Positions 4,046-31,690 of a stretch of DNA of 33,075 nt are shown piece by piece; positions within the stretch are counted from its first letter, which is position 1, and each line of letters opens with the position of its first letter. The stretch is from a virus, in the IMG/VR virus record IMGVR_UViG_3300026319_000014, positions 1 to 33,075 of that record, one strand, 5' to 3'. Under the pieces are notes generated by a model. The model saw nothing but the letters and a program-made list of their open reading frames with translations. It was not told the DNA's origin and made no database searches. Position numbers and translations under genes: made by a program.

Positions 4046-7000
4046 TTAAGTTCCTACAGAGCTCCAATCTACTATTCCAGCAACTGATACACTTAGAGCA
4101 TTTTTTAACACTACCGTATACCCGCTCTTGCTTTGAACTGTAATTATTGCAGTTAGCGTTGAATCTTGTGGCACGACCGTAATTAATGGGATTCCCTGCA
4201 CGTAAGGTCTGCTAAATACAATGCTAAGTCCAGCTAACGGAACAGTAACATTGTTCCCTCCATCGATATTCTGGGGAGTATCAATAAATAGCCACAATGA
4301 TTCTACGCTGAAAGGAATACTAGTCGGCGGGTTCGGATTCCAACTGAACATAAATTTAGAATACCGGCTCGCTGTAAACTGCGAAGCCAGGTTCTTCCAC
4401 CCTGACCATGTTATGTTGTCTACGGAAGTATTCATTTGTTCAGGAATCGGAACAAAATAGACTGAAGGCGCAATCAAGGTATCCGTAGCGAATGAAGCAA
4501 TGGACGCAATTCCTACCGTGTTATCTAGCGTCACCGTGAACCTGGCGTACCTATCGAACGTTGAACCCTTGATCGTTCCATCAATTCCAATGGACACTGT
4601 AAACCAATGAACATTATCTACTGAGTGCTCGATCAAACTGGTGAGCTTGTATGGTGGCGAACCAGCAGATTGTTTGACCGAAGAAACGAGAGTCAAATCC
4701 GATGGATAAACTGCAGCACTATCATCTGTCCATTTCACGACAGTGCTAGCAACTGGCAAATAAACCACGTTATCAAATACATCGAATCCTGTAGTCGAGT
4801 TAGCTAGTGCCGTGGACTGAGGAGTTATTGTGTAACCTGTCGGATGAATAATTCCACCCGTTATAGAAAGACTCGGCGTGTTCCATCCCGGCGCAAACAC
4901 GTGTTTCAAATCTAGGCCACTAGGAGGAATTCCTTCTAGTCCATAGAAATATTCGAAAAGAGATGAACTGCATCGGATCGTCTGATTGCTAACCAAAGCG
5001 TCAATCACTCGTGAAGTGAACGAACATTGAGTCGGAAACCCTTGACAGAATTTCTCAAACAACTCGTACCCAGTCGTACCAAAACTAGCTAACTGCGTAT
5101 CACTCGGAACCAATACGTAAGCCGTGGGATGAACTTGGCAACCCACTAAGATTGAACCGTTGTTTTGATCCCAGTCCAAAACCTGAAGCGTTCCAGGATC
5201 AACCGTACGTTCAATCGGGCCGTAGTTGATCTCGACCAGTTGGAACATGATCGGTACAGTGAAATTGACAGACGCTATCTCAAAAGAGAAAAGGCCATTC
5301 GCATCAAAACTAGCTACATAAATCGTCCATGTTCCCGGAGGAATAATACACTTGGCGTGTTGCGAATCCTGAGCATTCGCGTCAGCTATTTTTGCTGTTT
5401 GCCAATTCCCCCCCACCACCCCATACCTTACCTGATACCCGCGCGTTACCGGCGAAGGGTCAGGGGTCCAAGTGAATACAGTGAAGTTACCGTTCATCCC
5501 AACCGTAAGATTCGTTGGACCGAATAGCGATATCGGATTGTAACCTACAACGAACGAAAAACTGTTAGCCGTAGTAAGCGGCAGCAGATTAAAATGGTTG
5601 AGGGTCTGGAACTTGGCGTAAAAGAGTAACCCGAAATTGAACGGAGGCCACGAGACCGGTGTTAGATCGGAAGCAGCAATAAACCAAACGTCTGTTCCGA
5701 CCGGATGAATTACCGGCACAGATCCGTATAGACCTCGAACCATCGTGATGTTGTAAGATCCGCCCCCGACAGCCGTAACGATTCCTAGAGAGCATATTTC
5801 ATCGTTAATAAAAACGAGCCAAGTATTGTTGGCTGTTTGCGTGGCCGTTTGAGAAACAACACGCGCTGTATCTACTCCTGTCATCAGGACGGACATGGAA
5901 AGAGCCGATGAATTTAAGACGCTCTGTAGCGATCCTCGAATGGCGAAAAAGCAGAACTCGCTAGTTGAATCGAAGATCGAGTTATCCGAGCTGATCCACG
6001 GAATAAAACCGTAACTGAAACCCTCAGTTCGCTCAGCCAGAAATCCCATCTCAATAAGGTCGCCGGTACGCAGTTCTCCTGGAAGCGAAACTATCTTTGG
6101 TGAGTTACCAACAGGACCCACAAGAATCAAAGAGACATTGCTCTCCCGATCTGGTGGCGCCACATAAGTAGAATCGAATGTTCCGAGTTCTTGCTCGATT
6201 TCAATCGCAACCGAGTCTTTGGATTCATCGCCGTAATTCCATGTCTTGATTCTCCCTAGAAACGATGATCCGTAATCTCCTAACGAAACCGTCACAATAT
6301 CGGCCGGGTTATTGGTGAGCGCAGCCGATTTTAGAACCTCGATCTGGCCAGTGTTCTGCGGCTGAGACCGCATACGGTTGTAATCTTCACGGAATATGTA
6401 CGCGGTTAGCGGATGAGTAATATGTTCCCGTTGCAAATCAAGATTTCGAAATGCTCCAGTTTTATAGAACTGAGACGGGTTACCAACCCTGGACACCGTT
6501 GTAACGTACTGGTTCTGTGAGTTAGTCCATGTGATATGAATCTCGTTAGCTGTGCTAGAAAAAGACGGTGCCTTGATCCGTGGCTTCGAAACGATCTTAT
6601 CCATATCGAAGGTGGCAACCGGTGTATGCGCCGACTGGTGAGGCCAGAAACCTATCCTGATCAGTCCATTATTCGATCTGTAAATGTATCCATCAAAATA
6701 TTGCAACAGATCGTTAATGACCGATCGGATAGGTTGTTGACTCGTGTAAAGCGGAGATAGCCACATGCCCCATCCGTAAACCGCAGATAAATTTGTGATC
6801 TGTGTCTGAATAAAACTGGTGTCGAATTGGTTTGCCGGGATGCCAGCACCCCAGAATGTGTTAGTAAGAATCTCATAGATAATAGCGATAGGGTTAGCGC
6901 CATAATTGAAATTGATTAGCCTGCTATCGAGGTTTCCCATTCCTGGAAATACCGGCGTCTTTATGCACTCAAATTCAATTGTCGGCATTGATGTTTTACC

Positions 7001-7970: not shown

Positions 7971-10060
7971 TTCTTTGCACTGGTCCCATCGTTAGATTGG
8001 ACGGCTACAACTGACGGATTCGAGGCGGGAACGTTCGCTTCTCCACCGAAATTGATCAGATTATTAAACAGGTCACGACATGTCGTATTGATCCCGTCAC
8101 ACCCGAAATAACAGTAAACTGTTACCCCGACTACACTACCATTGAGAGGAGCATCTAGAGCAACGAACGGCGTAGCTCCTGGTCCCATGGACGTGATAAG
8201 TCTGCTTTGAAACACCTGCCCCCCGCCGGGAGGGATTAGAAGTACTCCATCATTAAAAAACTGAGATTGCGGCGTAAACCCGAACGCTATCGTGATGTAC
8301 TGAGGGGGTACCACCGAAGCGATCGTTCCAACAATTCCGTGTTGACTCATGATCGCACCGCACGCTGGCGAATACACAACGAACGGGCATTCGTTTGCGA
8401 TCATGTGCCTATGAAATTGTTGATCGTAAATACTGCCGAACCCTTTACACGTTACTGTGAACTTTGCTCCTTCAGTAAGAAGTTCATCGCATGTACCGAC
8501 AAAAAGAAGATTGTGCGTGCCGCTATCCCGGTTAACCTCGTAAATCGCTACCTGGAGTTCGGCTTCGATGATAAACGGGAAAAGTCGCTGGAGTGGGTTC
8601 CCGGTAAAAATAAAGCTTTCTATTGTGGCTTCGTCACTACCCATGTCAGTACCGCGCTGGCATTTAGTGAACTGAAAATAGCCCGGCGTGAATGTGCCAA
8701 GACCAGATACGACTAGCGTCGATTCGAAACTGGTATAATACCATGACGTGGTTGCCATGGGATTCGCTTCTGTGAATACATAGCAATACGCAACGTTCTG
8801 CTGCGTCGGCGTATAGAGATATTCCTCGGTCATCTCGAGAAATTTGATTGAGACATCAGCGCATCCATCCGCCTCGTATGTCCATTCGATCATTGGGTTC
8901 TGAAACCGGCAAAGAATCAGTGCCGACACCTTTGGGAACGGATCGAAATTATAGGGAGATGTCACTCCGAAGTTGAAATTGAGAACGTCGTAAGTTCCGC
9001 CCGTAGTGACCGTGTTCGCCTGAAACGGAAGAATGTGCCCTGAATTATCGTTGAGCAAATAGAATCCGTAACCTGCTCCAATGAAGTTCGAATCAAGATA
9101 ACGGCTGTTAGCGCTTACCGTTACACCAGGAGCGCCTATTACCGGAGGCGCGAATACTTGCCAATCAGCTCGCCAGGTAGGAACCCATAAATTGTTCAGC
9201 CTTCCTTTTCGATCTAAAAATATTCCTTCGATCTTCGCTATCTCTAGTCGAGTCATCGCCTCGAAATCGAGCTGGGTCACGCGCCTCGGTCCTTGCGGAT
9301 AAGCGAAGTCGGCTTCAGCTCGTCCGAACCCAATTTGCTCGTAATCAACATCAACCTCCGTCGTATCAACCTCTTGCTGACTGTAGGTGCACGGTATATC
9401 CCACAACCGTTCGCTTGCGCGTCCGAGATTCCCGCCAGTCGATACCAAGGTCTGAACAAACGGATTCATAACCTGAGTCACATCGCCCCATTCGGTAAAC
9501 GTCAGATCAATCGTGAAAATGCTTTCAGTGAGTTTCTTGAATTGGCCGCGTTTGCTGAACCGTCCGAACGCTACCGGCATCAAAATAGAATTGATCAGCC
9601 ATGCGCTCGTAGTACCAACCGAGAAAGTTATCGTGCTACCGACGATAGAGCTAACCTGTTTGAGCTCGTAGTTGAACGTCACGGGATTAACGAAGATGAA
9701 CCAGCTCCCGTATCTGGATGGAGGTTTGGCACTGTTGAACTGGCAAGTTGTCGCGCCAATCCCGATCCCGGCCGTTATCGCGACTTGATCAGTCCACATT
9801 GGGAGCGCTACCTGATCAGCTTTAAGTCGCTGGAATCCTAATCTGAGGTCTCCCGAACCATCCGAATCCCACACGAGATAACTGGCGTCAACTTCCCATT
9901 TCCCGTAATTGGAGAATGATCTAGCGCTCGTCTTATTGCTCTGGCTTTGCGCCTGGCCATCTTTGACAATCAAACGGACCTTAGGTTTAGTCGAGAAATC
10001 CGGAGGCATAAGAAACAAAACCACTGGTTTCGCGCCGACCGTTATCCACTCCATTCTCAT
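7967..10060 (-). CDS. Fused distal-tail and DUF2163/BR0599-like protein
   Basis: 697 residues that look like two tail proteins in one chain. The first ~415 residues are beta-rich, with GRFSKRGQFKKLTESIFTID and IEWTYEADGCADVSIKFLEM, as in distal tail/minor tail proteins. The second part (from about NVAYCYVF) matches the phage BR0599/DUF2163 pattern: CPFVVYSPACGAI, later CDGINTTCRDLFNNLINFGG, with the paired Cys of that family. In other phages these are often separate genes upstream of NlpC/P60, so this may be a fusion. Role: tail-tip ring below the tape measure. Bounded by ATGA overlaps at both ends. Confidence 0.78.
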   Translation of the reverse strand: MRMEWITVGAKPVVLFLMPPDFSTKPKVRLIVKDGQAQSQSNKTSARSFSNYGKWEVDASYLVWDSDGSGDLRLGFQRLKADQVALPMWTDQVAITAGIGIGATTCQFNSAKPPSRYGSWFIFVNPVTFNYELKQVSSIVGSTITFSVGTTSAWLINSILMPVAFGRFSKRGQFKKLTESIFTIDLTFTEWGDVTQVMNPFVQTLVSTGGNLGRASERLWDIPCTYSQQEVDTTEVDVDYEQIGFGRAEADFAYPQGPRRVTQLDFEAMTRLEIAKIEGIFLDRKGRLNNLWVPTWRADWQVFAPPVIGAPGVTVSANSRYLDSNFIGAGYGFYLLNDNSGHILPFQANTVTTGGTYDVLNFNFGVTSPYNFDPFPKVSALILCRFQNPMIEWTYEADGCADVSIKFLEMTEEYLYTPTQQNVAYCYVFTEANPMATTSWYYTSFESTLVVSGLGTFTPGYFQFTKCQRGTDMGSDEATIESFIFTGNPLQRLFPFIIEAELQVAIYEVNRDSGTHNLLFVGTCDELLTEGAKFTVTCKGFGSIYDQQFHRHMIANECPFVVYSPACGAIMSQHGIVGTIASVVPPQYITIAFGFTPQSQFFNDGVLLIPPGGGQVFQSRLITSMGPGATPFVALDAPLNGSVVGVTVYCYFGCDGINTTCRDLFNNLINFGGEANVPASNPSVVAVQSNDGTSAKK

Positions 10061-12630
10061 ACTTTGATCGAGTACCGATTCTTTCGAACCGTTTCTATGA
10101 TATGATGATCGGAATCAGGATGATTCAAAACAAAAGAACGCATCGTGGCCTCGTCAGTCCAATTGTGAATATGAACGTCGCGACCAGATCCTCCCGAACC
10201 ACTAGCACGCGAAGACGAACTGCTCCCGAGTGAGCTTCCAACCATTCCACCGAATTGATACTTCGGGACAAACGATAGCGAGTTGATCGCGTGAACGCTC
10301 GATTCTCCACCAATATGCGCAACACCTTCCGGCGTGATAACGCCTTCACCACTTCTCACCATTGCCACGCGATTGTCTGTCCCGCTGTAACCACCAGGAA
10401 CGATACCGCCTTGCGCGAATGCCAGAGCGGCTGCATACACGGCCGCCGCGGCAATTGGCGCCAGAATCCAACCGATGTAAGGAATATCGGCTGCGCTCTT
10501 TGCTGCTGCTGCGGCCGCTGCTGATGCGGACGAAAGCTTGTCTCCCTGGTTCGCTGTCCGAAGCACGGTCGAAGCGAGTAGCTGCTGCAACATGAGTTTA
10601 ATCAAGCTTTGAACAATCGATTCTGCGGCGCTCACAAACGCTTGCTGCCAATTCTTGGCTCCGAAAATTAGGCCAGTTAACCCCTGGCTTACTCCATCGA
10701 TACCGGTCTGCATCGTTTGCCCGAAGAACTGAGAAGCTTTCGTTCCAGTTATTGTGAACTCATCACCGAGTTTAACTAATCCTTGCTGAAACTGGCCCAT
10801 CCATGTGTTACTGCTCTGAGCCAATTGCATCTTGGCGTTCATCAAGTCGAGCTTGTCGATCGCCTTCTGCAGGTTATTGATCTGGGTATTCTCCTTATCG
10901 TTCAAACCTCCTTGCGCTTCTCCGACTGCCTTGATCTGATTCTGCATATCGACCAGCTTCGCTTTTGAAGTGTCGATTCCAGCAATCATCTGAGTCGCGA
11001 GCTGATAGTTTTTCGCGTTCTCTTGATCGAGCGATTCAAGCCCTAGCTTGTGATTGACGTTATTTCTTTCAACGCCGGCATTGTACGCAGCCTGTTTCTC
11101 GTTGATCTCGGACATTATCTCGGAGATCTTCTGCTGATCTAAGGCATCCTGACTCGGCCCTTTCTTGCCGCCTCCTTTTTCTTTAGGGAAACCGCCAGGA
11201 GGTGCGCTCAATCCCGGTTTGGCTGTAACTACTTGCTCATCGAGAATCGTCGTTTGCGCTTCCTCTCTGGCCTTGCTCTGCAAAGCCTCTTGTCCCGCTA
11301 GACGATTAGAGAGTGCCGAAGCTTCCGCACCCGAGAGACCGGGAGGTGGAGCGAACCCGGTTTCATTGGCCTGAGAAACCATTTGAGCGGACTGCACCAT
11401 GAAGTTACTAGCAGCCGACAGAGCGGCGACAATCGCCTTTCCTACCTCTTGCATGGCCGAAATCACTGGGCCCGCTGCTGCAATGATCGCATTGAAAGCA
11501 GCGAGGATTGCCGCAACACCAGCTTGAACATCCGGACCATTCATTGTCGCTGCCAGATCCTGAAGCGCCTTGGTAACAGGCTGCACCGTGTCTTTAGTCG
11601 CGCTTGCCGCTAAATTCTCGAAGCTGGCTTGGACCTTCTGCTGAGCTCGCTCGATCGTATCACCACTCTCTTGGTGCGCTGCAGTGTACTCCTGAACCTT
11701 GGAAATCAGGAGATCTGTGATCGTCCCATTCTCGCGAGCCGTGAGAACCTGATCTTTCTCTAGCCCTAGCCGCTGCGCTAAAGCGTTCGTGTTTCGTGTC
11801 TGGCCGTTCAATAGAGCGTTCAGATCCGTAATCAGTTTATCTTGGGTGATATGGAGAGCGCCCGAATTCGCTGTCAACTGCGTCACAAGCTCGACCTGTT
11901 GCTTAATACTGGCGTTTGCCCGGGTAGCTGCCGGATTGATTGTATCGAATCCCTTAGCGAGCTCAGAGAGCGGAACCTCGGCTTTCTTGGCCGATTCTGT
12001 CAGCAAATCAACCGCCGCGGTGCCAGCTTGCTGCGCTTTACCGCCGCCGAACCTCGATGAATCTGTGCTAAGCGTTCCTTCGACGCCTTCCTTGACGTTT
12101 TGAAGCGTTTTCTGTAGCTCTATCCCTTTCGTGATGATACCAGCGAGCGCGGCCGTAAACGCAAGTGCGCCGGCGATCCCTGCACCAACCATCACCGTCT
12201 GGAGTAACCCAATCTCGTTCGCTGTGCCAACCGCGCCACGTCCTAGCAAGTTTATCTCGCTCCCTAGCGCACCAGTTCCAGGAATCATCCGCGTCATCCC
12301 GGCCGTAAGTAGAACGGTGTTGCGTTCCATTGCCGCCATGTTTATTCCTGCGGCTTCAGCTTTCTTTCCGGTATCAGCGAGCGCCTCTCCAGCTCCTTTT
12401 ACGGTTTGGCCGGCTATAAGAGAATTAGCGGCCAATGCCGCAAAACCTGGATTTAACGCCATGAATGAGGCGCTAGGTTTTTGCGCAGCGGCGGCTAGCT
12501 CAGCCATCGATATAGCAGCGTTGCCCGTGGTCCTTTTAAGACCTTCCATCTCCGCGCTGACAGCGGCCAACTCTGCCTTATTGGCTTTTACATCGAGGAG
12601 GATCTCAACAGTTCTGGTGGAATCAGGCAT
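10057..12630 (-). CDS. Tail tape measure protein
   Basis: 857 residues, Ala-rich and largely helical, immediately after the G/GT chaperone genes, as expected for tape measure genes. Hydrophobic segments lie near residues 145-170 (VMVGAGIAGALAFTAALAG) and near the C-terminus (YIGWILAPIAAAAVYAAALA). The latter is followed by the typical tape-measure tail FAQGGIVPGGYSGTDNRVAM, then RSGEGVITPEG. It spans the tail lumen, sets tail length and probably forms part of the DNA-entry channel. The ATG directly follows the TAG of the frameshifted chaperone (TAGATG). Full size for a medium-length siphovirus tail. Confidence 0.93.
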   Translation of the reverse strand: MPDSTRTVEILLDVKANKAELAAVSAEMEGLKRTTGNAAISMAELAAAAQKPSASFMALNPGFAALAANSLIAGQTVKGAGEALADTGKKAEAAGINMAAMERNTVLLTAGMTRMIPGTGALGSEINLLGRGAVGTANEIGLLQTVMVGAGIAGALAFTAALAGIITKGIELQKTLQNVKEGVEGTLSTDSSRFGGGKAQQAGTAAVDLLTESAKKAEVPLSELAKGFDTINPAATRANASIKQQVELVTQLTANSGALHITQDKLITDLNALLNGQTRNTNALAQRLGLEKDQVLTARENGTITDLLISKVQEYTAAHQESGDTIERAQQKVQASFENLAASATKDTVQPVTKALQDLAATMNGPDVQAGVAAILAAFNAIIAAAGPVISAMQEVGKAIVAALSAASNFMVQSAQMVSQANETGFAPPPGLSGAEASALSNRLAGQEALQSKAREEAQTTILDEQVVTAKPGLSAPPGGFPKEKGGGKKGPSQDALDQQKISEIMSEINEKQAAYNAGVERNNVNHKLGLESLDQENAKNYQLATQMIAGIDTSKAKLVDMQNQIKAVGEAQGGLNDKENTQINNLQKAIDKLDLMNAKMQLAQSSNTWMGQFQQGLVKLGDEFTITGTKASQFFGQTMQTGIDGVSQGLTGLIFGAKNWQQAFVSAAESIVQSLIKLMLQQLLASTVLRTANQGDKLSSASAAAAAAAKSAADIPYIGWILAPIAAAAVYAAALAFAQGGIVPGGYSGTDNRVAMVRSGEGVITPEGVAHIGGESSVHAINSLSFVPKYQFGGMVGSSLGSSSSSRASGSGGSGRDVHIHNWTDEATMRSFVLNHPDSDHHIIETVRKNRYSIKV

Positions 12631-16888: not shown

Positions 16889-17659
16889 GTCTTCCTCCTC
16901 GTTTTGTTTGTTGTCCGGTTCATCACCGGGTTTAATTAAAACTTTCTTGGCTGAGATCCGTTCAATCGTTCTGAACGCTGGATCGTTGGTCAGCGCTCCG
17001 ATCGCGCCTTCCGGCGGCAGACCAACCGGACAACCTTCCGGATCCAGCAAAAACGTAGGACTGAAAAACGAATAGTCTTTTCCTTCCACTGCATACTTGC
17101 CGGCCCGCGTCCAATCGAGCTCAAGGAACACACCTTCGCCTTCAACCCATTCAAACCGTTTAGGGAGAGCAGCCGCGGCGCCTAGCTGATGATTAAAATC
17201 GATGATCGGTCGCACATTACCTTGCAGCCGTTGCTCTAAATCGTTCTGAAGCAGGAGCGCCGTCTCAGCATCGACTCTCACCTCGACCTCTTTCGCTTCT
17301 CCTCCGACACTAGCCGATATCTTTGAATCGCCGGCCGGAAAATACATGATCCGGTTAGGAGCAGATCCATTGAGGTCAACTGCGTACTCGGCCGTGACGT
17401 AGGTAGCTGAAACGTCGATCCCTAATCTCTTGGCCGCCGCGTGAATCTTTCCGCCTATCGTCTTTTGATCTTCAGCCGAATATTTTTCGCGATTCTTTGG
17501 CATTCCCCAATAACTGAGCGCGGCTCGAACATGTTCCTCAGTATCGATCGGGTATTTTTTATTTTTCTCATCGGCGTAGTTCACCTCGCCGTACTTCTTC
17601 TCACCTTCTTTCGGGTTTACGCCCGCTCGTTTCTCGATCGCTTTGACTAACCTATTCAT
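16373..17659 (-). CDS. Mu gpI-like head maturation protease with scaffold C-terminus
   Basis: 428 residues in three parts. Residues about 20-82 hold YADEKNKKYPIDTEEHVRAA and EKYSAEDQKTIGGKIHAAAK, a small helical domain (DUF6582-like) seen in several phage and bacterial proteins. Residues about 100-235 are the Mu gpI-type protease: IDFNHQLGAA (His157), then LELDWTRAGKYAVEGKDYSF, FSPTF (Ser200) and GALTNDPAF. Residues 258-428 are charged and helical, a scaffold. The protease processes capsid/scaffold proteins in the prohead. An internal start gives the scaffold alone. The ATG overlaps the upstream TGA. Confidence 0.88.
   Translation of the reverse strand: MNRLVKAIEKRAGVNPKEGEKKYGEVNYADEKNKKYPIDTEEHVRAALSYWGMPKNREKYSAEDQKTIGGKIHAAAKRLGIDVSATYVTAEYAVDLNGSAPNRIMYFPAGDSKISASVGGEAKEVEVRVDAETALLLQNDLEQRLQGNVRPIIDFNHQLGAAAALPKRFEWVEGEGVFLELDWTRAGKYAVEGKDYSFFSPTFLLDPEGCPVGLPPEGAIGALTNDPAFRTIERISAKKVLIKPGDEPDNKQNEEEDMELAKALVSAGFITEEDSKDTSKIVAAIQAKTKKESDGSLNTEIEALRAELQQVRVEGANKEADAAIVRAVAEHRIEPKNETMKASIKKLYLANKVEAENLIKSLPVNKAFEKAVIVTSDQDRIKTETDGRDRARKCEAAAKRVQKGSPNMSFQDAWNVAATEDPELFQAV
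16889..16899 (-). promoter_or_regulatory. Strong internal ribosome site for the scaffold
   Basis: Minus-strand AGGAGG at 16899-16894, then AAGAC and the in-frame ATG at 16888. It encodes Glu-Glu-Glu-Asp in the protease frame and decides the nested scaffold start. Most other starts in the operon rely on overlaps with weaker sites. Confidence 0.75.
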
Positions 17660-18273
17660 ACTGCTGCTCCCGCTAGTTCGCCCGAAGCTGCAGCGCTAAG
17701 AGCCGCATCGAGCTGAATCATAAAATTGGTTTTAAAAATATCTGCAATAGCCTCGTTCTCCGGTAACGCGCCTGGCCACGGCCCTTGACTAACTGACTGC
17801 ACAAGAGCGTAAACTGGCACGAATGGCCCCCCTTCACCTCCCATGGCCAAAACGCTCACCCCTTTAGGAATAAAGAGCGGCTCAGGGAATTCTCTCGCCG
17901 GAACACCTTTCGCTTCCGGAATAAGCGGAATAGTCAATGCAGCAGCGCTCACCGGCGCGATCGTGCCGCCTAAGACCTTATGCGCGAGGTGCGGATGCAT
18001 GTTCGAAATAGAAACGGCGCCTTCACCGACAAGCTGCGGTTCCTGCCATGCAACCGGTATTTCTCGCGCCCATTCGCCGGAATGCGGGCCAGCCATATAA
18101 TGGTCACCGCGCCATCGCTCTTCGAAATCAGTGTGATACTGAACCAAGAAATCTTTGACGCTTTTCCCGGCTGACAAAAGTGCTTCGCTCGTGTCGATGG
18201 AATCAAGCTGAGCTAGAACTGGCGTAAGATCATCCCGGTCTATCGCAATCGTGATCGTGAGTTCGTCGCTCAT
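17656..18273 (-). CDS. Virion morphogenesis protein, Mu gp31 (gpG) position
   Basis: 205 residues between the minor head protein and the protease, the place of Mu gp31. The centre reads HPHLAHKVLGGTIAPVSAAA, then LTIPLIPEAKGVPAREFPEP and LFIPKG. I recognise this as the 'H...GG.I.P....aL.iPl.peA.G..a..f' pattern of proteins annotated in Mu-like heads as morphogenesis/tail-completion-like. The N-terminal part is helical (LLSAGKSVKDFLVQYHTDFE). Both ends are ATGA overlaps. Exact function (head completion or head-tail joining) is inferred from position. Confidence 0.68.
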   Translation of the reverse strand: MSDELTITIAIDRDDLTPVLAQLDSIDTSEALLSAGKSVKDFLVQYHTDFEERWRGDHYMAGPHSGEWAREIPVAWQEPQLVGEGAVSISNMHPHLAHKVLGGTIAPVSAAALTIPLIPEAKGVPAREFPEPLFIPKGVSVLAMGGEGGPFVPVYALVQSVSQGPWPGALPENEAIADIFKTNFMIQLDAALSAAASGELAGAAV

Positions 18274-18524
18274 GACAAAGCCACCTTTTCCGGTTTATGA
18301 CGAATGAGCGGAGTCATCCGAGTTGGCGTATACCAGAAAACATCCGCGTCGTCGCAGTCCGACCATCTAAACCGATCACCCTGAGTAAACCTGTAATTGG
18401 TCGCCTCGACGTATAGAAAATATTGGTTTCCGGTATCGCACTCAATCAACATCAAAATGATGATGTTCTCATCAGAAGGAATGAATTTTCCTTTAAACGC
18501 TGCGTACAAAATTCCCGATCTCAT
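18270..18524 (-). CDS. Small head-region protein, 84 aa, unknown
   Basis: I start it at MRSGILYAAFKGKF because this ATG forms an ATGA overlap with the upstream gene, like its neighbours. A start 15 codons earlier would overlap that gene by 49 nt. The protein is beta-rich and aromatic (IIILMLIECDTGNQYFLYVE, then RFTQGDRFRWSDCDDADVFW). Not recognised. It ends in ATGA with the next gene, so it is translated with the head morphogenesis set. Confidence 0.65.
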   Translation of the reverse strand: MRSGILYAAFKGKFIPSDENIIILMLIECDTGNQYFLYVEATNYRFTQGDRFRWSDCDDADVFWYTPTRMTPLIRHKPEKVALS

Positions 18525-19204
18525 ACCGCCGTAACAGCTGCCTCCTGCCAGCGATAGGAAACCGAACATCGGCAGTTCGGATGATGCGGAGTATCTTCAG
18601 TGCCGCTGCCGCTGAACTGTTCGTTGATCGGTATCCATCCGTCCGCTTCATTCTCTTCGCACTCAGCACACACGTGGTCATCTCCAACCGTTTCCGAGAA
18701 CTTCTCGGTTGCACCGGTCATTGACGCTACGCGTCGGCTCGATTTGCCGTCTACGAACGAAAGAGCGTTCTGCGATAACTGTTTCGCGCGATCAGCTCCG
18801 AACCCGCTCAGATTCGTGATCTCTTGTTCGACTTGAGACTTAGACCAACCCTCTTCCTCAGCTTGAATAACGGCCTTCTCAATCTGGTCGAGCAGCGTCT
18901 GTGATAAACCCCATGTAACAGCTAAACCGCCCGAAGCTAAACCAGAGATTCTATCCCAGTGCAAGCCGAGAAGAGCCGCGGATTCCTCGTTCGCAATCTG
19001 GAAATTCTCTTTCGCGACTTGGTTTAGAAAATAGTCGCTAGGCTCCCTGTTTGATTCCGATAGAATCTCTCGAGAACTGTACACCGTCGCATCAAGCAAA
19101 ATTCGAGAAACCTCTTCAAAATACTGGTCCCAACCCTGCAGTAGAATCGTATCACCGTAATCCGGAAGGCCATCGATGCCGTACTCGGTAATGAACTCTA
19201 TCAA
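18521..19204 (-). CDS. Minor head protein, Mu gp30/SPP1 gp7-like
   Basis: The C-terminal region has the hallmark of the F/gp7 head morphogenesis family: VGDDHVCAECEENEADGW, then PHHPNCRCSVSYRW, with Cys pairs and HPNCRC probably binding metal. Upstream are helices with QAEEEGWSKSQVEQEITNLS. The protein sits inside the head near the portal. The first usable start is TTG at 19204, but the frame stays open upstream to 19309 and reads like authentic protein (ARDYKKVHKDPHPVLEREL, then AVLLLSALSEKQQKLIEFI) without any ATG, GTG or TTG. The true N-terminus is therefore unclear. The open stretch begins right at the tRNA-like element. Confidence 0.82.
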   Translation of the reverse strand: MIEFITEYGIDGLPDYGDTILLQGWDQYFEEVSRILLDATVYSSREILSESNREPSDYFLNQVAKENFQIANEESAALLGLHWDRISGLASGGLAVTWGLSQTLLDQIEKAVIQAEEEGWSKSQVEQEITNLSGFGADRAKQLSQNALSFVDGKSSRRVASMTGATEKFSETVGDDHVCAECEENEADGWIPINEQFSGSGTEDTPHHPNCRCSVSYRWQEAAVTAV

Positions 19205-19310
19205 TTTCTGCTGTTTCTCTGAAAGCGCCGAGAGAAGAAGAACCGCGAGTTCCCGTTCGAGAACGGGATGCGGATCTTTGTGAACCTTCTTATAATCTCT
19301 CGCCGTAAGG

Positions 19311-19379
19311 CGCTAATGCCGGGAGTCGAACCCGATGACTATCCTTGGTTAGGGGATTTTATCAGTACCTACCATTAGC
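19311..19379 (-). tRNA. tRNA-like element with reduced D arm (possible tRNA relic)
   Basis: On the minus strand GCTAATG (19379-19373) pairs perfectly with CATTAGC (19318-19312), a 7-bp acceptor stem with discriminator G. A T arm (TCGGG-TTCGACT-CCCGG, with the consensus TTCGA loop) precedes the 3' strand. A 5-nt variable region AGTCA precedes that. A 17-nt anticodon-like arm (ATCCC-CTAACCA-AGGAT) has one C-A mismatch, a U at position 33 and AAC as the apparent anticodon (Val-like, but C at 37 is unusual). Only about 15 nt remain for positions 8-26, with no D stem. No CCA is encoded. The 5' half overlaps the end of the 19349-19693 gene. Functional tRNA is doubtful; tRNA-derived origin is likely. 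Confidence 0.5.
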
Positions 19380-19693
19380 TTTTTCTTTTTCACTTGCTTA
19401 TCGAACTCATCTAAAACTTGCCGAGCTTCACTCCACCGGAACACCTGCAAAGTCACTCCATTAACCTCGAACTCAATCCCGGCATTGCGTTCCCGAGCCA
19501 TCGCGACCGCTTGATGGACAACGTCTTTGAGAGGCTGACCCTTGATAGCCACAACGCGGATCACCTCCGTTATAGCCGAGAAACGGTTTTCGCGCAACTC
19601 CCGCATACGAATTGCCTTCGAAACCACTAAAGATGTTTGTACGTCCACCACATCATTAATTCCAGCATTCCTCGATTCCGGGTCAGTACTCAT
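19349..19693 (-). CDS. Hypothetical protein after the portal gene, 114 aa
   Basis: Not recognised. Helical protein with RMRELRENRFSAITEVIRVV, a strand pair (AGIEFEVNGVTLQVFRW) and a Lys-rich end. It begins by ATGA overlap with the portal gene. Its last nine codons and stop lie inside the tRNA-like element. The minor head protein downstream is in the same reading frame, separated by two stops (TAA, TAG) that are both inside that element. The C-terminus after VKKKK may therefore be altered relative to an ancestral form. Confidence 0.7.
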   Translation of the reverse strand: MSTDPESRNAGINDVVDVQTSLVVSKAIRMRELRENRFSAITEVIRVVAIKGQPLKDVVHQAVAMARERNAGIEFEVNGVTLQVFRWSEARQVLDEFDKQVKKKKLMVGTDKIP

Positions 19694-21258
19694 TCTCTGA
19701 TCCTTCTCAGCCGATCACGAATAGACTTCACGGTTGCTCCGCCAGGGCTACTGCCGCCGGCATCGCTCTTGAACCCAGCCGTTCCTGCTGGAATTTGGCT
19801 TGGATCTTGCATAGGCAATGCGGGCGCTGCCGGCTCAAAGAGATCATCATCTTCGGACGGTTGCGGCACGGAGTGGCGATCGTACAGGAATTGTTTCGCT
19901 ACCGGCAACCGCATCTGGTCGAACAGGATTGCATCACGCTGCGCCAGCGCGAGTTCATCCATCGGTTCTTCCTGGCTGCCGCTCAAATTAGGAGGCTCGC
20001 TGGTTTCTCCAAAATTGAGCATCAATATCGCCGGAATAAGCTGTGTATTGACCACCTCAATCACAAATTCAGCTACCGCGTTGATTACCTTGCGCTCGGT
20101 CTCAGCGTGAATCTCGCCGAGTGCCCTATTTCCGCCGGCCCGGCCGCTCGTGCTAGTCAGCGTCTGACCAAGAATCAAAATGTCGCATTGCTGATCCGCA
20201 TCTTCTTGAAGCACGCGTTGAGGTATCATCATGCCACTTTGCGAACGTGCTTCAGATAGAGTTAGCTTGGTTCCTACCGGAAATACGGCCCACGCCGCTG
20301 ACCCCATTTGTTCAAGCATCGCGGATACTTGGTTAAATGTGACCTGGTCTCCGGCAGGTACTTCGGCCATCCGGAACGGCATACCGAAAAGCTGGCAATA
20401 AGTCATAAACCATTTGAGGCCGTACTTGCTCGCCAAAAACCACCCGGTAAGCGACCGAAGCATAGCGCAGATAGTAGGATGATCGTCGTGCGCCTCGAAT
20501 ATCCCAACTACAAACTTGTTCTGAAACTCACTAAAATCATTCAGATTAACTTGCGCGAAAGATAGAACACCGGTCGTGTTCAACATCAACCTGTCTTCCT
20601 CCATCGGCTGCATCGAGTACCCGTAATATCGCGGAGGGAGTTTCCGACTGCACCGCGGCATTGTCTCTAAACCGCCGGTCGGCCCGGGACGTTGTTCCCA
20701 GTAGATCTCAGATACTGAGATCGCACATGGTATTGCGTCTACCAGATCTTTAATGAACCCTGTCCAACTGCGCTCATGAAACACGATATCGCCCTTCATG
20801 CCAAATAACGCACGTTCTATTAGATCAGCTTTAGCTTGCGCTGTCGGAGTTGGGTCCGCGTTCTTCTCCGTGTATGGTTCAATCGACCACGGCAACCCAG
20901 CAACATCACGTTTTAAGCTCAGAAGGTTCTTTTGCAGACGCGGCCATTCGTCACACATCTTTTCGAATAGCCGCTTCTGATAAAGTAAGTTCCCAATAAC
21001 CGATTCACGCAGAATATGCATCAATCGCTCTGGACCAATCGGACCCCAGATCTGATTGATTAACCGGTCGTTGTTATTGACCTCAATTATGCCCGACTGC
21101 GGCACGTTTCCTGCCGCACCGATCAATTTGGCGCTGCCATTGAGTGGCAACGGCCCTTGTGAAAGGCTAGCAAGAGCCGCGCCGTTGCTGCCGGTCTGAG
21201 CAGTGTTCCCCCCAGAACCTTGTTTCTTTCCGGCAAATCTATTTCTTCGTTTCGCCAT
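19690..21258 (-). CDS. Portal protein, DUF935 / Mu gp29-like
   Basis: 522 residues. DUF935 features in order: an N-terminal PERLMHILRESVIGNLLYQK helix, a wing DVAGLPWSIEPY, SEIYWEQRPG, then KYGLKWFMTYCQLFGMPFRM and the signature DILILGQTLTSTSGRAGGNR followed by ALGEIHAETERKVINAVAEF. This is the dodecameric portal through which DNA is packaged. It follows the lysis block instead of following terL directly, unlike in Mu. The N-terminal ~55 residues are low-complexity (Gly/Ala/Asn), and the C-terminal ~90 are Pro/Ser-rich. TAATG overlap with the small upstream gene. Confidence 0.94.
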   Translation of the reverse strand: MAKRRNRFAGKKQGSGGNTAQTGSNGAALASLSQGPLPLNGSAKLIGAAGNVPQSGIIEVNNNDRLINQIWGPIGPERLMHILRESVIGNLLYQKRLFEKMCDEWPRLQKNLLSLKRDVAGLPWSIEPYTEKNADPTPTAQAKADLIERALFGMKGDIVFHERSWTGFIKDLVDAIPCAISVSEIYWEQRPGPTGGLETMPRCSRKLPPRYYGYSMQPMEEDRLMLNTTGVLSFAQVNLNDFSEFQNKFVVGIFEAHDDHPTICAMLRSLTGWFLASKYGLKWFMTYCQLFGMPFRMAEVPAGDQVTFNQVSAMLEQMGSAAWAVFPVGTKLTLSEARSQSGMMIPQRVLQEDADQQCDILILGQTLTSTSGRAGGNRALGEIHAETERKVINAVAEFVIEVVNTQLIPAILMLNFGETSEPPNLSGSQEEPMDELALAQRDAILFDQMRLPVAKQFLYDRHSVPQPSEDDDLFEPAAPALPMQDPSQIPAGTAGFKSDAGGSSPGGATVKSIRDRLRRIRE

Positions 21259-23894: not shown

Positions 23895-26800
23895 TCATTT
23901 TTTCCAACACCGGACATAGCTGATCCCGAAATTATTGGACCACCCAGACTGACCGGTAGCGGGTAATCCTGTCCCGAATGAATTATCCAAATTGAGCTGC
24001 ATCGGGACATTCCACTCACTAGTGAGCCCGGTAAACTTGTGAGAGAGCACCCCATCAATGTAGATCGAGACGCTTCCAGGTTGGATCAGGCAACCCCAGA
24101 CATGCCAGCCTAGCGAAGGGACAGGCGGATTAAAGGTGTACGGGTTCCGGTTCGCGATTGACAGGTGCGTTGTCGGATCAACTAAATAGGAGTGCAGGTT
24201 TTGCTGGCATTGCGGAAACTCCAGTATATCGACTTCCCCGTAATTACCGGTTACCGGGTCAACTGAGGCGGTTGATCCGATCACCCAAGCGCTCATCCAA
24301 CGCTCAGAGCCAGCTGCCGGAACGAACGCTTTGACTTCCCAGTAGGCGAGAGCTCCCCAGAATCCAGGGATAACGGTTCCAGGCGGCACATTAAACGAAT
24401 GAGCGACGCTAGATATTAATCCTCCAGAAGGAGGCACCAGTGAACCGTTAGCGTAAATGGTCAGATAATGCTTGCCACTGGCATCGGTCGATGCGGTCGA
24501 GAACGGTGAGCCCTCCCCGTTAAATGTGGTGGTAAACCCGCCAGGTTGCCCTACGATCGCGTTCCAGATACTGCCGGTAGCTGGTCCATTCAAGGCAACG
24601 TTGGCCGGCACATTGAACGGCTGATATTTCGGGTCACTGAAATCCTGATTCCACTGCAACGTATAGCCAGACGGGAGCACCCCGGCAGGCAACACGGGAT
24701 TAATCCCTGTAATAGGCGTCGGTGTAGGAGTAGCCGGAGGCGTTGGGGTCGGGGTAGGAGTCGGTGTAGGGGTTGGAGGTGGCTTAGAGGAATACTCAGT
24801 CACCGTCATTGCCGGATTGGTTGTACTAACCCCGAAGGAAAACGCCACGCTGTTCCCTGACTCGGCTTTAATGTTGTTGGATGTCCACGTTCCAGTAGGA
24901 TTTTGGATGTAAGGCTCACTAAAGCTATCGGTGACAGTCACGCTTGCTGAGGGACTGACTGTCGCCACAATCCAGTCACCAGCGAGTTGTGGCTTAGCCA
25001 TGGTGATGCCATAAACGCCGATGAGCGATCCTCCGTAGTTAACCTTATATTGCTGTACAATATAAGCAGGTGTTGGTGTTGGTGTAGGTGTTGGTGTAGG
25101 TGTTGGTGTAGGTGTAGGTGTTGGCGTCGGTGTGGGTGTAGGTGTTGGCGTCGGTGTGGGTATGGGTGTAGGGGTTGGCGTCGGCGTAGGGGTCGGTGTG
25201 GGTGCCCCATCGGGCGTGATTGGATTAGTGCCAATCCATGTATCAATCGGACCAGAGAACCCAGGCCCATTAAAGAGCAGGTCTAGCTCGGTATTGAGTG
25301 TTGCGATCCACTGTGAATAGCTCGGTGGATTCAATCCGGCGTCCGGGAATATTGGATGAGTCCCAACCCAGACGGATGTCGGACCCGACATTCCAGGCCC
25401 ATTATTCAAGGTATCTTCCTCGTTGTATAACGACTTCAGCCACGTGTTGTATGTGATTGGCGTCGGAGTCGGAGTAGGAGCGGGGCTCGGTGTAGGCGTG
25501 GGAACAGGGGTTGGAGTAGGAGTAGGTAACGGTGTGGGAGTGGGTGTAGGCGTCGGTACCGGAGTCGGAGTCGGAACAGGAGTAGGAGTAGGCGTAGGGG
25601 TCGGAGTTGCACTTGGTGTTGGGGTTGGTGTGGGTAGCGGGGTTGGGCCAGTCGCGGGACTCAGCATGATCACGTCTGGTCCCATCGGTACGCCGGATAC
25701 AGTGACGCTAGATCCAGAGTTAGTGAAGGTCAGGCCGCTGACCGGTTCGCCGGTAGAAAGGTTAACGCCGCTGATCCCCAGAGGCACAGTCGGCACACTG
25801 AATGTGACGTCAGTCAAAGCCGGGATCACCCAAGTATGCGGGATAGTGCCCGCCATCCAGACATTGGCCGCGAAGTGTCCTGCTGCGTCAGAAAACATAG
25901 CGCCAGTAGCGTTGGCTGGTACAAAGCTTGGGTCTACGCTGGAGAAACTAAAGGCTGGAGTCGGTGCCGGTGTCATCCCGGCTATCCCTGCTTCCAGCCG
26001 GTTGATTGCCAACAGTTGTAGACGAGCTTGATGGTCGTAGGTGAAAAGTGATTGGCCGGAATCGCCACTAGAAAGCTGGTAAAAGAATGTGTGCTCAACC
26101 CCTAGTTGCTTGGTCAAGATAAGCCGGCGCGTCATCCATTCTGCCGCCATGATCTCGCCGCCACCTGGCCCGCATTCTGTCTCCCAGAACGGCAGCGCGG
26201 TCTTCGAGCGTAGCGTGCTCACCCAATTGGAATAATTAAAACCCCACGGGGCGTTGCCGCCTTCGTAAACCGATTCCGGGTTATTGAATGGGTAATTGGC
26301 GTCATAGGGATGGTACACAATCCCATCCAAGTGCGTAGGCGCGAGCGCCAGCATATCGAGTATCTGCTGGCCTTGTGCCCCTAGGCCGATCACCGGCACG
26401 TTGAGATTGAGAGCATGAATAGCGTCTGCCACGCTATTGGATAAGGTCACCAGCTGGCTTTCCCATGTCGTGCCTTCGACCGACTGGAAGCTGTTGTTCG
26501 GTTCGTTCTGAACTTCGATCGCAGCGATATGGACTCCGCGTGCTACCTCTTGCTGGACCCACCAGGTGATGAACGAGATAAACTGGGTGGTTGGAAACGG
26601 CGAGAGCGGATAGAAGAGCGGTGTATAATCGTGGGCGCCATCAAACCCTGGACAGAACACGATTGAGTAACCGGCTGCGCTCATAGCATCGATCCAGGCT
26701 TGCTCGGTCATATCGAGGGTGTAGACGCCTTGGGTCAGCTCGTACTTGCGCCAGTTGGGCGCGTCACCGTCGCGGATCATCGCGAGCGGCGTTCTTGCCA

Positions 26801-26954
26801 TCAGTGGAGGCAAAACCGTCTGGCCATAGTTCGGATTGCCGACCTGGTTTTCAAAGTGGACGGCTGCGCCAAGTTTCGAATCAGTGGCAGCCCGTGAATT
26901 CGACGGCATGACGAACCACGAGCAAATCACGCTTAGTATGAGAAAAAATTTCAT
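23895..26954 (-). CDS. Secreted two-domain glycosidase (clan GH-A-like plus GH16-like)
   Basis: 1019 residues from [20 protein letters not shown], a signal peptide cleaved near RAA/T. I chose this start because the 47 residues upstream are Arg-rich and read through the preceding gene. Residues ~27-330: clan GH-A-like barrel with the acid/base Glu151 in IEVQNEPNN and the nucleophile Glu260 (or 258) in PFWETECG. Residues ~435-500 are a PT-repeat linker. Two copies of a 40-residue 'W...L..E.D.L.NGPG.SGP...W.GT.PI.PD' unit, another PT linker, a beta domain and a third linker follow. The C-terminal ~235 residues carry the GH16 signature E-V-D-I-L-E (Glu907, Glu912). It probably cuts beta-glucan or galactan outside the cell. 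Confidence 0.85.
24712..25642 (-). repeat. GT-rich tandem repeats encoding PT linkers
   Basis: Three blocks of imperfect hexamer repeats (GGTGTA/GGTGTT/GGAGTA type on the plus strand) at about 24712-24780, 25068-25206 and 25452-25642. On the minus strand they encode (Pro-Thr)n. They produce long spurious plus-strand ORFs of Gly-Val repeats. Such arrays are slippage-prone and linker length probably varies between relatives. Confidence 0.9.
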
Positions 26955-26962
26955 GTTATAGC

Positions 26963-27133
26963 TCAGTATGGATAATACGGATAACGAGGCGCAGCGGTCG
27001 GACTTCCGTGCGGCGAAACCTTCTCTTGGAAGCCTTTGTCTGGGTAATGGCCGCGAATGCGATGCCCTGTCTTTTTGGTGTCGCCTGCGAAGCATGTAAC
27101 GCTTAAGCAGAATAGGATCGTCAATATTTTCAT
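26963..27133 (-). CDS. Small secreted Pro/Tyr-rich protein, 56 aa
   Basis: Starts [20 protein letters not shown]: a short signal peptide with cleavage likely around FA/GD. The mature part is basic, then ends in [12 protein letters not shown] lies 7 nt before this ATG, which also overlaps the upstream stop (ATGA). A start 11 codons earlier is therefore unlikely. It precedes the glycosidase by 8 nt and is probably co-translated. Function unknown; a partner of the secreted enzyme is possible. Confidence 0.68.
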
Positions 27134-30526: not shown

Positions 30527-30720
30527 GCACTACACAATCGAGTGTGAAAGCGGCGACAGAGTTGGTACGGTTCACTCATTGGGCCAAAGAACAAGCTAGG
30601 GTCGACCTGAACTTTCTGAAGCTCGCGTTGCAAGCTACTGAAGCCCGGATTGACACGTTGGAGGCTGACCTCGCGTTTACCAATCGAAAGATTACTGAAA
30701 TCGAGAATAAGCGCGGTTAA
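30523..30720 (+). CDS. Coiled-coil protein, 65 aa
   Basis: Mostly one helix: ARVDLNFLKLALQATEARID then TLEADLAFTNRKITEIENKR, with heptad-like Leu/Ile spacing. Starts as ATGA. Its last 29 nt overlap the 3' end of the integrase gene on the other strand, so the two transcripts converge. Likely a small dimeric accessory protein; family not known. Confidence 0.7.
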   Translation: MSTTQSSVKAATELVRFTHWAKEQARVDLNFLKLALQATEARIDTLEADLAFTNRKITEIENKRG

Positions 30721-31549
30721 CATCGGAATCATACGGCGCAAGATGCGCATAGTGCAGCGTGACCACCTCAACACCGTCGCCTAACCAACTGGCTATTTTG
30801 TAAAGGCTGGTTCCAGATTGAGCGTGCAGACTGGCGAAAGTTCTTCGTAGATCGTGAAAGGTGATATTGACGCCTTTGTTTCTTACGTAACTTTCGAACC
30901 GATACGAAAAATCATATCGGTATCGCCACTTCGTTTTAGCGAGTTTATGGGTGCCGATCATGAATGGATCTGGTAATCCGTAATCGTCAAGATAATCGCT
31001 GAATTGATCAGTAATTGGGATATCACGATCAGCGTGATCTTTGGTATCCCATCGGTCGGAGCGGATAATGGAGAGGACGCGAGCATTGAGGTTGAACCAT
31101 TGCGGCCGACTCATCACGACTTCGCCAAATCGAAGGCCAGCGTGAAGCCCGCAATACAGAGCATATTTCAGTTCCCTGTCTTCGCATTTCTCGATCAACA
31201 TTTCTGCGACCGGCGCCGAAACAAAATTGCGACGCAACGATTTATTGAACCTCGGCAACGAGACAGCGGTTGCCGGGTTTTCCGAGATAATGTTTCGGTC
31301 CTTGGCCCAGTCGAGAAACTGGTGAATCTGGAACATGTAAGCAGCGACCGTGGCCGGCTTGACTGTGGATAACTTCTGGTCCGCCCATGTTTGCAACTTG
31401 GCGACGGAAAGCTGGGCAATGTCATCTACAGAAATGGTTTTGAGCCAGTGTTCAAGTGTCCACGTCGTATCGTGGAGATAATTTTCTGAGATGGAATAAG
31501 AGCGTGAAGCGAGGTAAAGCTTCAAAATTTCGGGTAAGTGGGGGTACAT
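30692..31549 (-). CDS. int: Tyrosine integrase
   Basis: 285 residues from MYPHLPEILKLYLASRSYSI. I prefer this start to one 39 codons upstream, whose extra residues are Cys-rich and unlike an integrase and would run through a palindrome. An N-terminal SAM-like core-binding domain is followed by the catalytic domain: Arg140 (GLHAGLRFGE), Lys170 (WDTKDHADRDIPI), His232/Arg235 (HDLRRTFASLH) and Tyr267 (VVTLHYAHL). The usual 'LGH' is LGD (Asp258), so the second His/Trp of the active site is replaced. It would insert the phage genome into the host. Minus strand, convergent with the small cassette. Confidence 0.9.
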   Translation of the reverse strand: MYPHLPEILKLYLASRSYSISENYLHDTTWTLEHWLKTISVDDIAQLSVAKLQTWADQKLSTVKPATVAAYMFQIHQFLDWAKDRNIISENPATAVSLPRFNKSLRRNFVSAPVAEMLIEKCEDRELKYALYCGLHAGLRFGEVVMSRPQWFNLNARVLSIIRSDRWDTKDHADRDIPITDQFSDYLDDYGLPDPFMIGTHKLAKTKWRYRYDFSYRFESYVRNKGVNITFHDLRRTFASLHAQSGTSLYKIASWLGDGVEVVTLHYAHLAPYDSDVNRAYSRFQ

Positions 31550-31592
31550 GGAACCAATGAGGGTACAAAATTCAGTGAAAAAGGATTGCAAA

Positions 31593-31690
31593 ATGCAAGT
31601 TGGTGCTTGCTTGCATGTCACAGATTTGACGCAGAATCTTTGCCTAAATTCAATATTTATCGTCACTCCCCATAAGATGGTTTCATGGGG
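31593..31690. promoter_or_regulatory. Two dyads upstream of the integrase (operator-like)
   Basis: ATGCAAG (31593-31599) and CTTGCAT (31610-31616) form a perfect 7-bp inverted repeat with a 10-nt gap. CCCCAT (31668-31673) and ATGGGG (31685-31690) form a perfect 6-bp repeat with an 11-nt gap. Both have half-site centres 17 bp apart, the spacing common for dimeric repressors. The region lies between int and the small regulator-like gene, so control of int or an arm-type integrase site is plausible. The att core is not identifiable here. Confidence 0.5.

Follow-up and report, generated by a model that had tools for sequence, protein, structure and literature searches.

The window analysed here, the whole stretch of viral DNA of 33,075 bases, contains a Mu-type head module on its minus strand, in which the genes are arranged in the order terminase, portal, a small ORF, MuF, a 99-aa ORF, a virion morphogenesis-like gene, a Mu-like protease and the major capsid protein. 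The Mu-type portal gene spans 19,690–21,258 (minus strand; PF06074, E 2.6e-62). It is followed by a small ORF of 114 aa (19,349–19,693, minus strand) with a codon-usage score of +25, for which no homologue was found and which had no match in phages. The MuF minor head gene (18,521–19,306, minus strand; PF04233) comes next, and the 99-aa ORF (18,270–18,569, minus strand) is placed between MuF and the virion morphogenesis-like gene (17,656–18,273, minus strand). The latter is kept in relatives and shows 49% identity to its counterpart in the relative L227, where an ORF similar to the 99-aa ORF was also recognised by eye at the equivalent place. Near the head module, the region spanning 23,895–27,095 contains a 1066-aa ORF with long threonine-proline repeats between two apparent sugar-cleaving domains.

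A tRNA-like element without a D arm, comprising 68 nt and a discriminator G, is located at the boundary of the portal and MuF genes (19,311–19,379). The strand, which was not stated in the first-pass annotation, is the minus strand, in sense with the head operon. Read from 19,379 to 19,311, the element is GCTAATG-GTAGGTACTGATAAA-ATCCCCTAACCAAGGAT-AGTCA-TCGGGTTCGACTCCCGG-CATTAGC-G, and all its parts are given here on the minus strand. The 5′ acceptor strand GCTAATG (19,373–19,379) forms 7/7 Watson-Crick pairs with the 3′ acceptor strand CATTAGC (19,312–19,318), which is followed by G and CCT, and CCA is not encoded. The region corresponding to tRNA positions 8–26 (19,358–19,372) is exactly 15 nt long and forms no D stem. 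The anticodon-like arm (19,341–19,357) consists of ATCCC and AGGAT, paired at four of the five positions with a C-A mismatch at 31–39, around the 7-nt loop CTAACCA. Although U33 is present in this loop, position 37 is C, so the full 5-bp stem and the purine 37 of a tRNA are both lacking. The MFE fold offers an alternative to this arm, a 4-bp stem with a 9-nt loop, extended by TGAT/GTCA. The variable region AGTCA is 5 nt long, and the T arm (19,319–19,335) has a stem of TCGGG and CCCGG with 5/5 pairs, one of them G-U, and a loop, TTCGACT, that fits TTCRANY. Thus, as in a tRNA, the 7-bp acceptor stem runs directly into a T stem of 5 bp, whose loop fits TTCRANY. The anatomy proposed at first pass, which included a perfect 7-bp acceptor stem, a TTCGA T loop, a 5-nt variable region, a near-perfect anticodon arm and about 15 nt where positions 8–26 should be, was borne out in each of these parts, and so was the overlap with a coding gene's 3′ end, as the TAA stop of the 114-aa ORF falls in the anticodon loop.

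Comparison with chance and with tRNA genes

The likelihood of such a structure arising by chance was estimated with two descriptors. The first required complete pairing of the acceptor stem, a T stem of 5 bp and a loop fitting TTCRANY; it matched once in the window and 4 times in 148.8 Mb of first-order Markov sequence. The second, in which an anticodon arm at tRNA spacing was added and the D region was left free between 5 and 30 nt, gave 1 match in 1.13 Gb of composition-matched random sequence, corresponding to ~3e-5 expected per 33-kb window. When the second descriptor was applied to 3.1 Mb of real loci, a set that includes loci fetched because tRNAs were present in them, it found 57 tRNAs and the D region was 18–22 nt in all 57. 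The 15-nt D region of the window element was the sole exception, being shorter by 3–7 nt. Because the element matches this descriptor far above chance and the same descriptor finds 57 tRNAs, we conclude that the element is tRNA-derived, with a D region short by at least 3 nt.

The folding energy alone was unremarkable (z = -1.19). ARAGORN predicted no tRNA gene at the element, and it was missed by Rfam at gathering thresholds. The first-pass annotation had proposed a tRNA covariance model as a check, and the Rfam tRNA model (RF00005) gave no match even at E ≤ 10. The nearest Rfam family was mascRNA-menRNA (RF01684), with 25.2 bits against a cut-off of 42.5.

The MuF start region

The homologous start position of MuF reads ACG (19,304–19,306, minus strand), 4 nt past the discriminator base of the element. 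In L227, which shows 44% identity over MuF residues 1–259, the codon aligned ungapped to this ACG is ATG. No ATG, GTG or TTG was found between the in-frame TAG at the element end and the first TTG of MuF, and no Shine-Dalgarno sequence precedes the ACG while one is present at several other genes of the window. By codon usage, MuF is coding up to the element, with the 105 nt before the first TTG scoring +9.8. The reference values were 11.0 ± 4.8 for in-frame stretches and -21 ± 11 for off-frame stretches, of which 0/270 reached +9.8. The ACG could be a weak start codon, a site that is mixed in the population, or an error of assembly. It is surrounded by a small inverted repeat, CGCC-TTAC-GGCG.

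Relatives and the portal-MuF junction

When MuF, the small upstream ORF and portal were each used alone to search viral_contigs, no relatives were found; these were recovered with alignment queries instead of single-sequence queries. An exact 22-mer of the element was absent from viral_contigs, and a search of 388 Verrucomicrobiota genomes gave no match to MuF. Upstream of MuF, L227 has an unrelated proline/threonine-rich gene and no tRNA. In the nearer portal relatives (L007, L185, L010 and others), no MuF homologue was found by tblastn, and a morphogenesis-like gene comes soon after portal. Since the gene content between portal and MuF differs among relatives, the junction seems, from these sequence comparisons, to be a place of accessory DNA turnover.

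Intact tRNA genes were found at similar sites in other phages. In L148, a Mu-like prophage, a tRNA with a Met CAT anticodon (9,871–9,941) stands in sense in the gap that separates the capsid gene from the gene after it, and CAT-anticodon tRNAs also occur near Mu-like head genes in L166 (5,913–5,985) and L069 (203–273). These intact genes provide a precedent for a tRNA gene at a head-gene site. The L148 tRNA resembles the window element in its sense orientation, in being squeezed between head genes of a late operon and in its acceptor and T-arm architecture, but it has a full D arm and is clear of both ORFs, whereas the window element has no D arm and overlaps an ORF. The L148 tRNA carries a mismatch at C1-A72, a trait of bacterial initiator tRNAs. 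In L167, another Mu-like prophage, an ARAGORN-negative tRNA (5,695–5,765; RF00005, 36.7 bits) lies antisense to the MuF 3′ end and overlaps it.

Origin of the element

With moderate confidence, we favour, as the most economical account, the explanation that the element is a degenerate, non-decoding phage tRNA gene, kept as accessory DNA in the late operon. A phage-borne tRNA gene would have settled as accessory DNA between portal and MuF and would then have decayed, losing the D arm and acquiring the anticodon-stem mismatch and the pyrimidine at 37, while the acceptor and T arm stayed intact. Its ability to decode would have been lost. The element would presumably be transcribed together with the head genes; the upstream ORF would now end inside it, and it would abut a MuF gene whose start region had lost its AUG and Shine-Dalgarno sequence. 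As the D arm is missing, C31-A39 is mismatched and position 37 is C, the element is unlikely to decode; it probably descends from a complete tRNA gene and probably has no present function. A structure far above chance and yet rejected by tRNA finders also argues for decay. On the other side, the acceptor and T stems keep all 12 of their pairs, a pattern that selection for recognition by RNase P and RNase Z would also leave, no intact ancestor or sister copy of the element was found in our searches, the folding energy is not exceptional, and the evidence comes from a single contig. Furthermore, decay leaves unexplained how the intact MuF ORF is translated without an AUG. The element itself is ordinary in kind, and the odd detail is the adjacent loss of a start codon. 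If it is a relic, it adds another case of phage tRNA gain and loss, unusual by its site in a head operon and its invisibility to standard tRNA finders.

A functional tRNA mimic, also suggested at first pass, in which RNase P would cut at 19,379 and RNase Z near 19,311 and thereby split the portal mRNA from the MuF mRNA, appears unlikely, although several features speak for it. The features read by RNase P are intact, namely the acceptor/T minihelix, the T loop and G73-C-C (RCC), and parallels exist in mitochondrial tRNA punctuation and in the release of mascRNA from MALAT1. D-armless mitochondrial tRNAs, which decode using adapted mitochondrial factors, resemble the element in having lost the D arm while keeping the acceptor, anticodon-like and T arms; the anticodon arm of the window element is, in contrast, imperfect and its setting is a phage. 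The best Rfam match points to the same mechanism, as mascRNA is a D-reduced tRNA mimic that is still cleaved by RNase P and Z (PMC11693755). The likeness to mascRNA/menRNA lies in the acceptor and T arm and the reduced D part; those RNAs are, however, eukaryotic and their processing is demonstrated, whereas the window element would be a phage-borne candidate scoring under the family cut-off. In addition, no elbow guanosines can be assigned in the element, although mascRNA has them in its reduced D loop, cleavage at 19,379 would strip the upstream ORF of its stop codon, and the element is not conserved in relatives. Ribosomes reading the upstream ORF would pass through the 5′ half of the element before they reached the stop in the anticodon loop. 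Such translation would compete with the folding of the element and unfold it, which speaks for decay and against a processing signal.

An attachment site is improbable, and so is a scar that site-specific recombination with a host tRNA gene left behind. The window encodes a tyrosine integrase (30,692–31,666), tRNA-like attP genes are known (PMC8707807) and tRNA fragments remaining after integration are widespread (PMC9897764). In halovirus HF2, the tRNA-like gene HrrHF2_450, which has relatives shortened to 57 nt, lies beside the integrase and was read as attP; like the window element, it is virus-borne, low-scoring and non-conventional (PMC8707807). The window element differs in being 11 kb from the integrase gene and in having no host-gene match: its 28-nt 3′ half, with ≤3 mismatches allowed, was absent from the 388 Verrucomicrobiota genomes, the host phylum being inferred from similarity to Akkermansia phages alone. 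There is no repeat of the element >11 nt elsewhere in the window, near the integrase included. Moreover, both acceptor strands are kept, not the 3′ part alone, and integration at the element would split the head operon. With no matching 3′ half in these genomes and no second copy close to the integrase, neither a recent exchange with the host nor an attachment site is supported. Thus, the displaced attachment site suggested at first pass is not supported, and of the suggested relic of recombination with a host tRNA gene, the tRNA derivation and probably the relic nature stand while the recombination with a host gene lacks support.

It is very improbable that the D-armless structure aids MuF initiation at the ACG, either as a cis-acting tRNA mimic or through 3′ processing that would create the 5′ end of the MuF mRNA. 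Were the element processed or involved in translation, bacterial viruses would have an equivalent of tRNA punctuation or of initiation by a tRNA mimic, and the missing MuF start codon makes such a reading directly testable.

A fusion gene with a 69-nt insert was attractive at first. Under this explanation, the non-coding element interrupts one frame that the upstream ORF has in common with MuF, and its removal or skipping would yield a fusion protein. The two ORFs do share a frame and both are coding by codon usage, while the element is non-coding with TAA and TAG. The shared frame is expected in 1 of 3 cases by chance, however, and the MuF of L227 has its own ATG at the codon equivalent to the window ACG, with a stop 4 codons earlier and no fusion, so that this explanation was rejected as barely credible. 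Chance resemblance, in keeping with the folding energy and the lack of any score from tRNA models, is strongly disfavoured and scarcely conceivable at the ~3e-5 matches expected per window.

Other tRNA-like stretches in phages

Phage tRNAs with a GCTAATG acceptor (L167–L184) were mostly canonical and shared nothing with the element beyond the letters searched. On a Myxococcales contig (L124), a tRNA-like stretch of 68 nt with no clear D arm was found at 10,262–10,329 within a Mu-like head region, in a 300-nt intergenic gap downstream of the Mu-type capsid region. It was rejected as support, since it passes the weaker descriptor only, for which ~0.04 chance matches are expected in the 1.6 Mb searched. 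In phages R24.2, HRTV-25 and Twister, the sequences closest to the T half by BLAST are ARAGORN-negative tRNA-like stretches; having been selected by T-arm similarity and failing the full descriptor, they were kept as leads only. In Lacticaseibacillus phage R24.2 (L307), two or three odd ARAGORN-negative tRNA-like stretches, one of 63 nt, one like a long-armed tRNA and one of 57 nt, occur at ~1,090–1,530 in ~1 kb without annotated genes.
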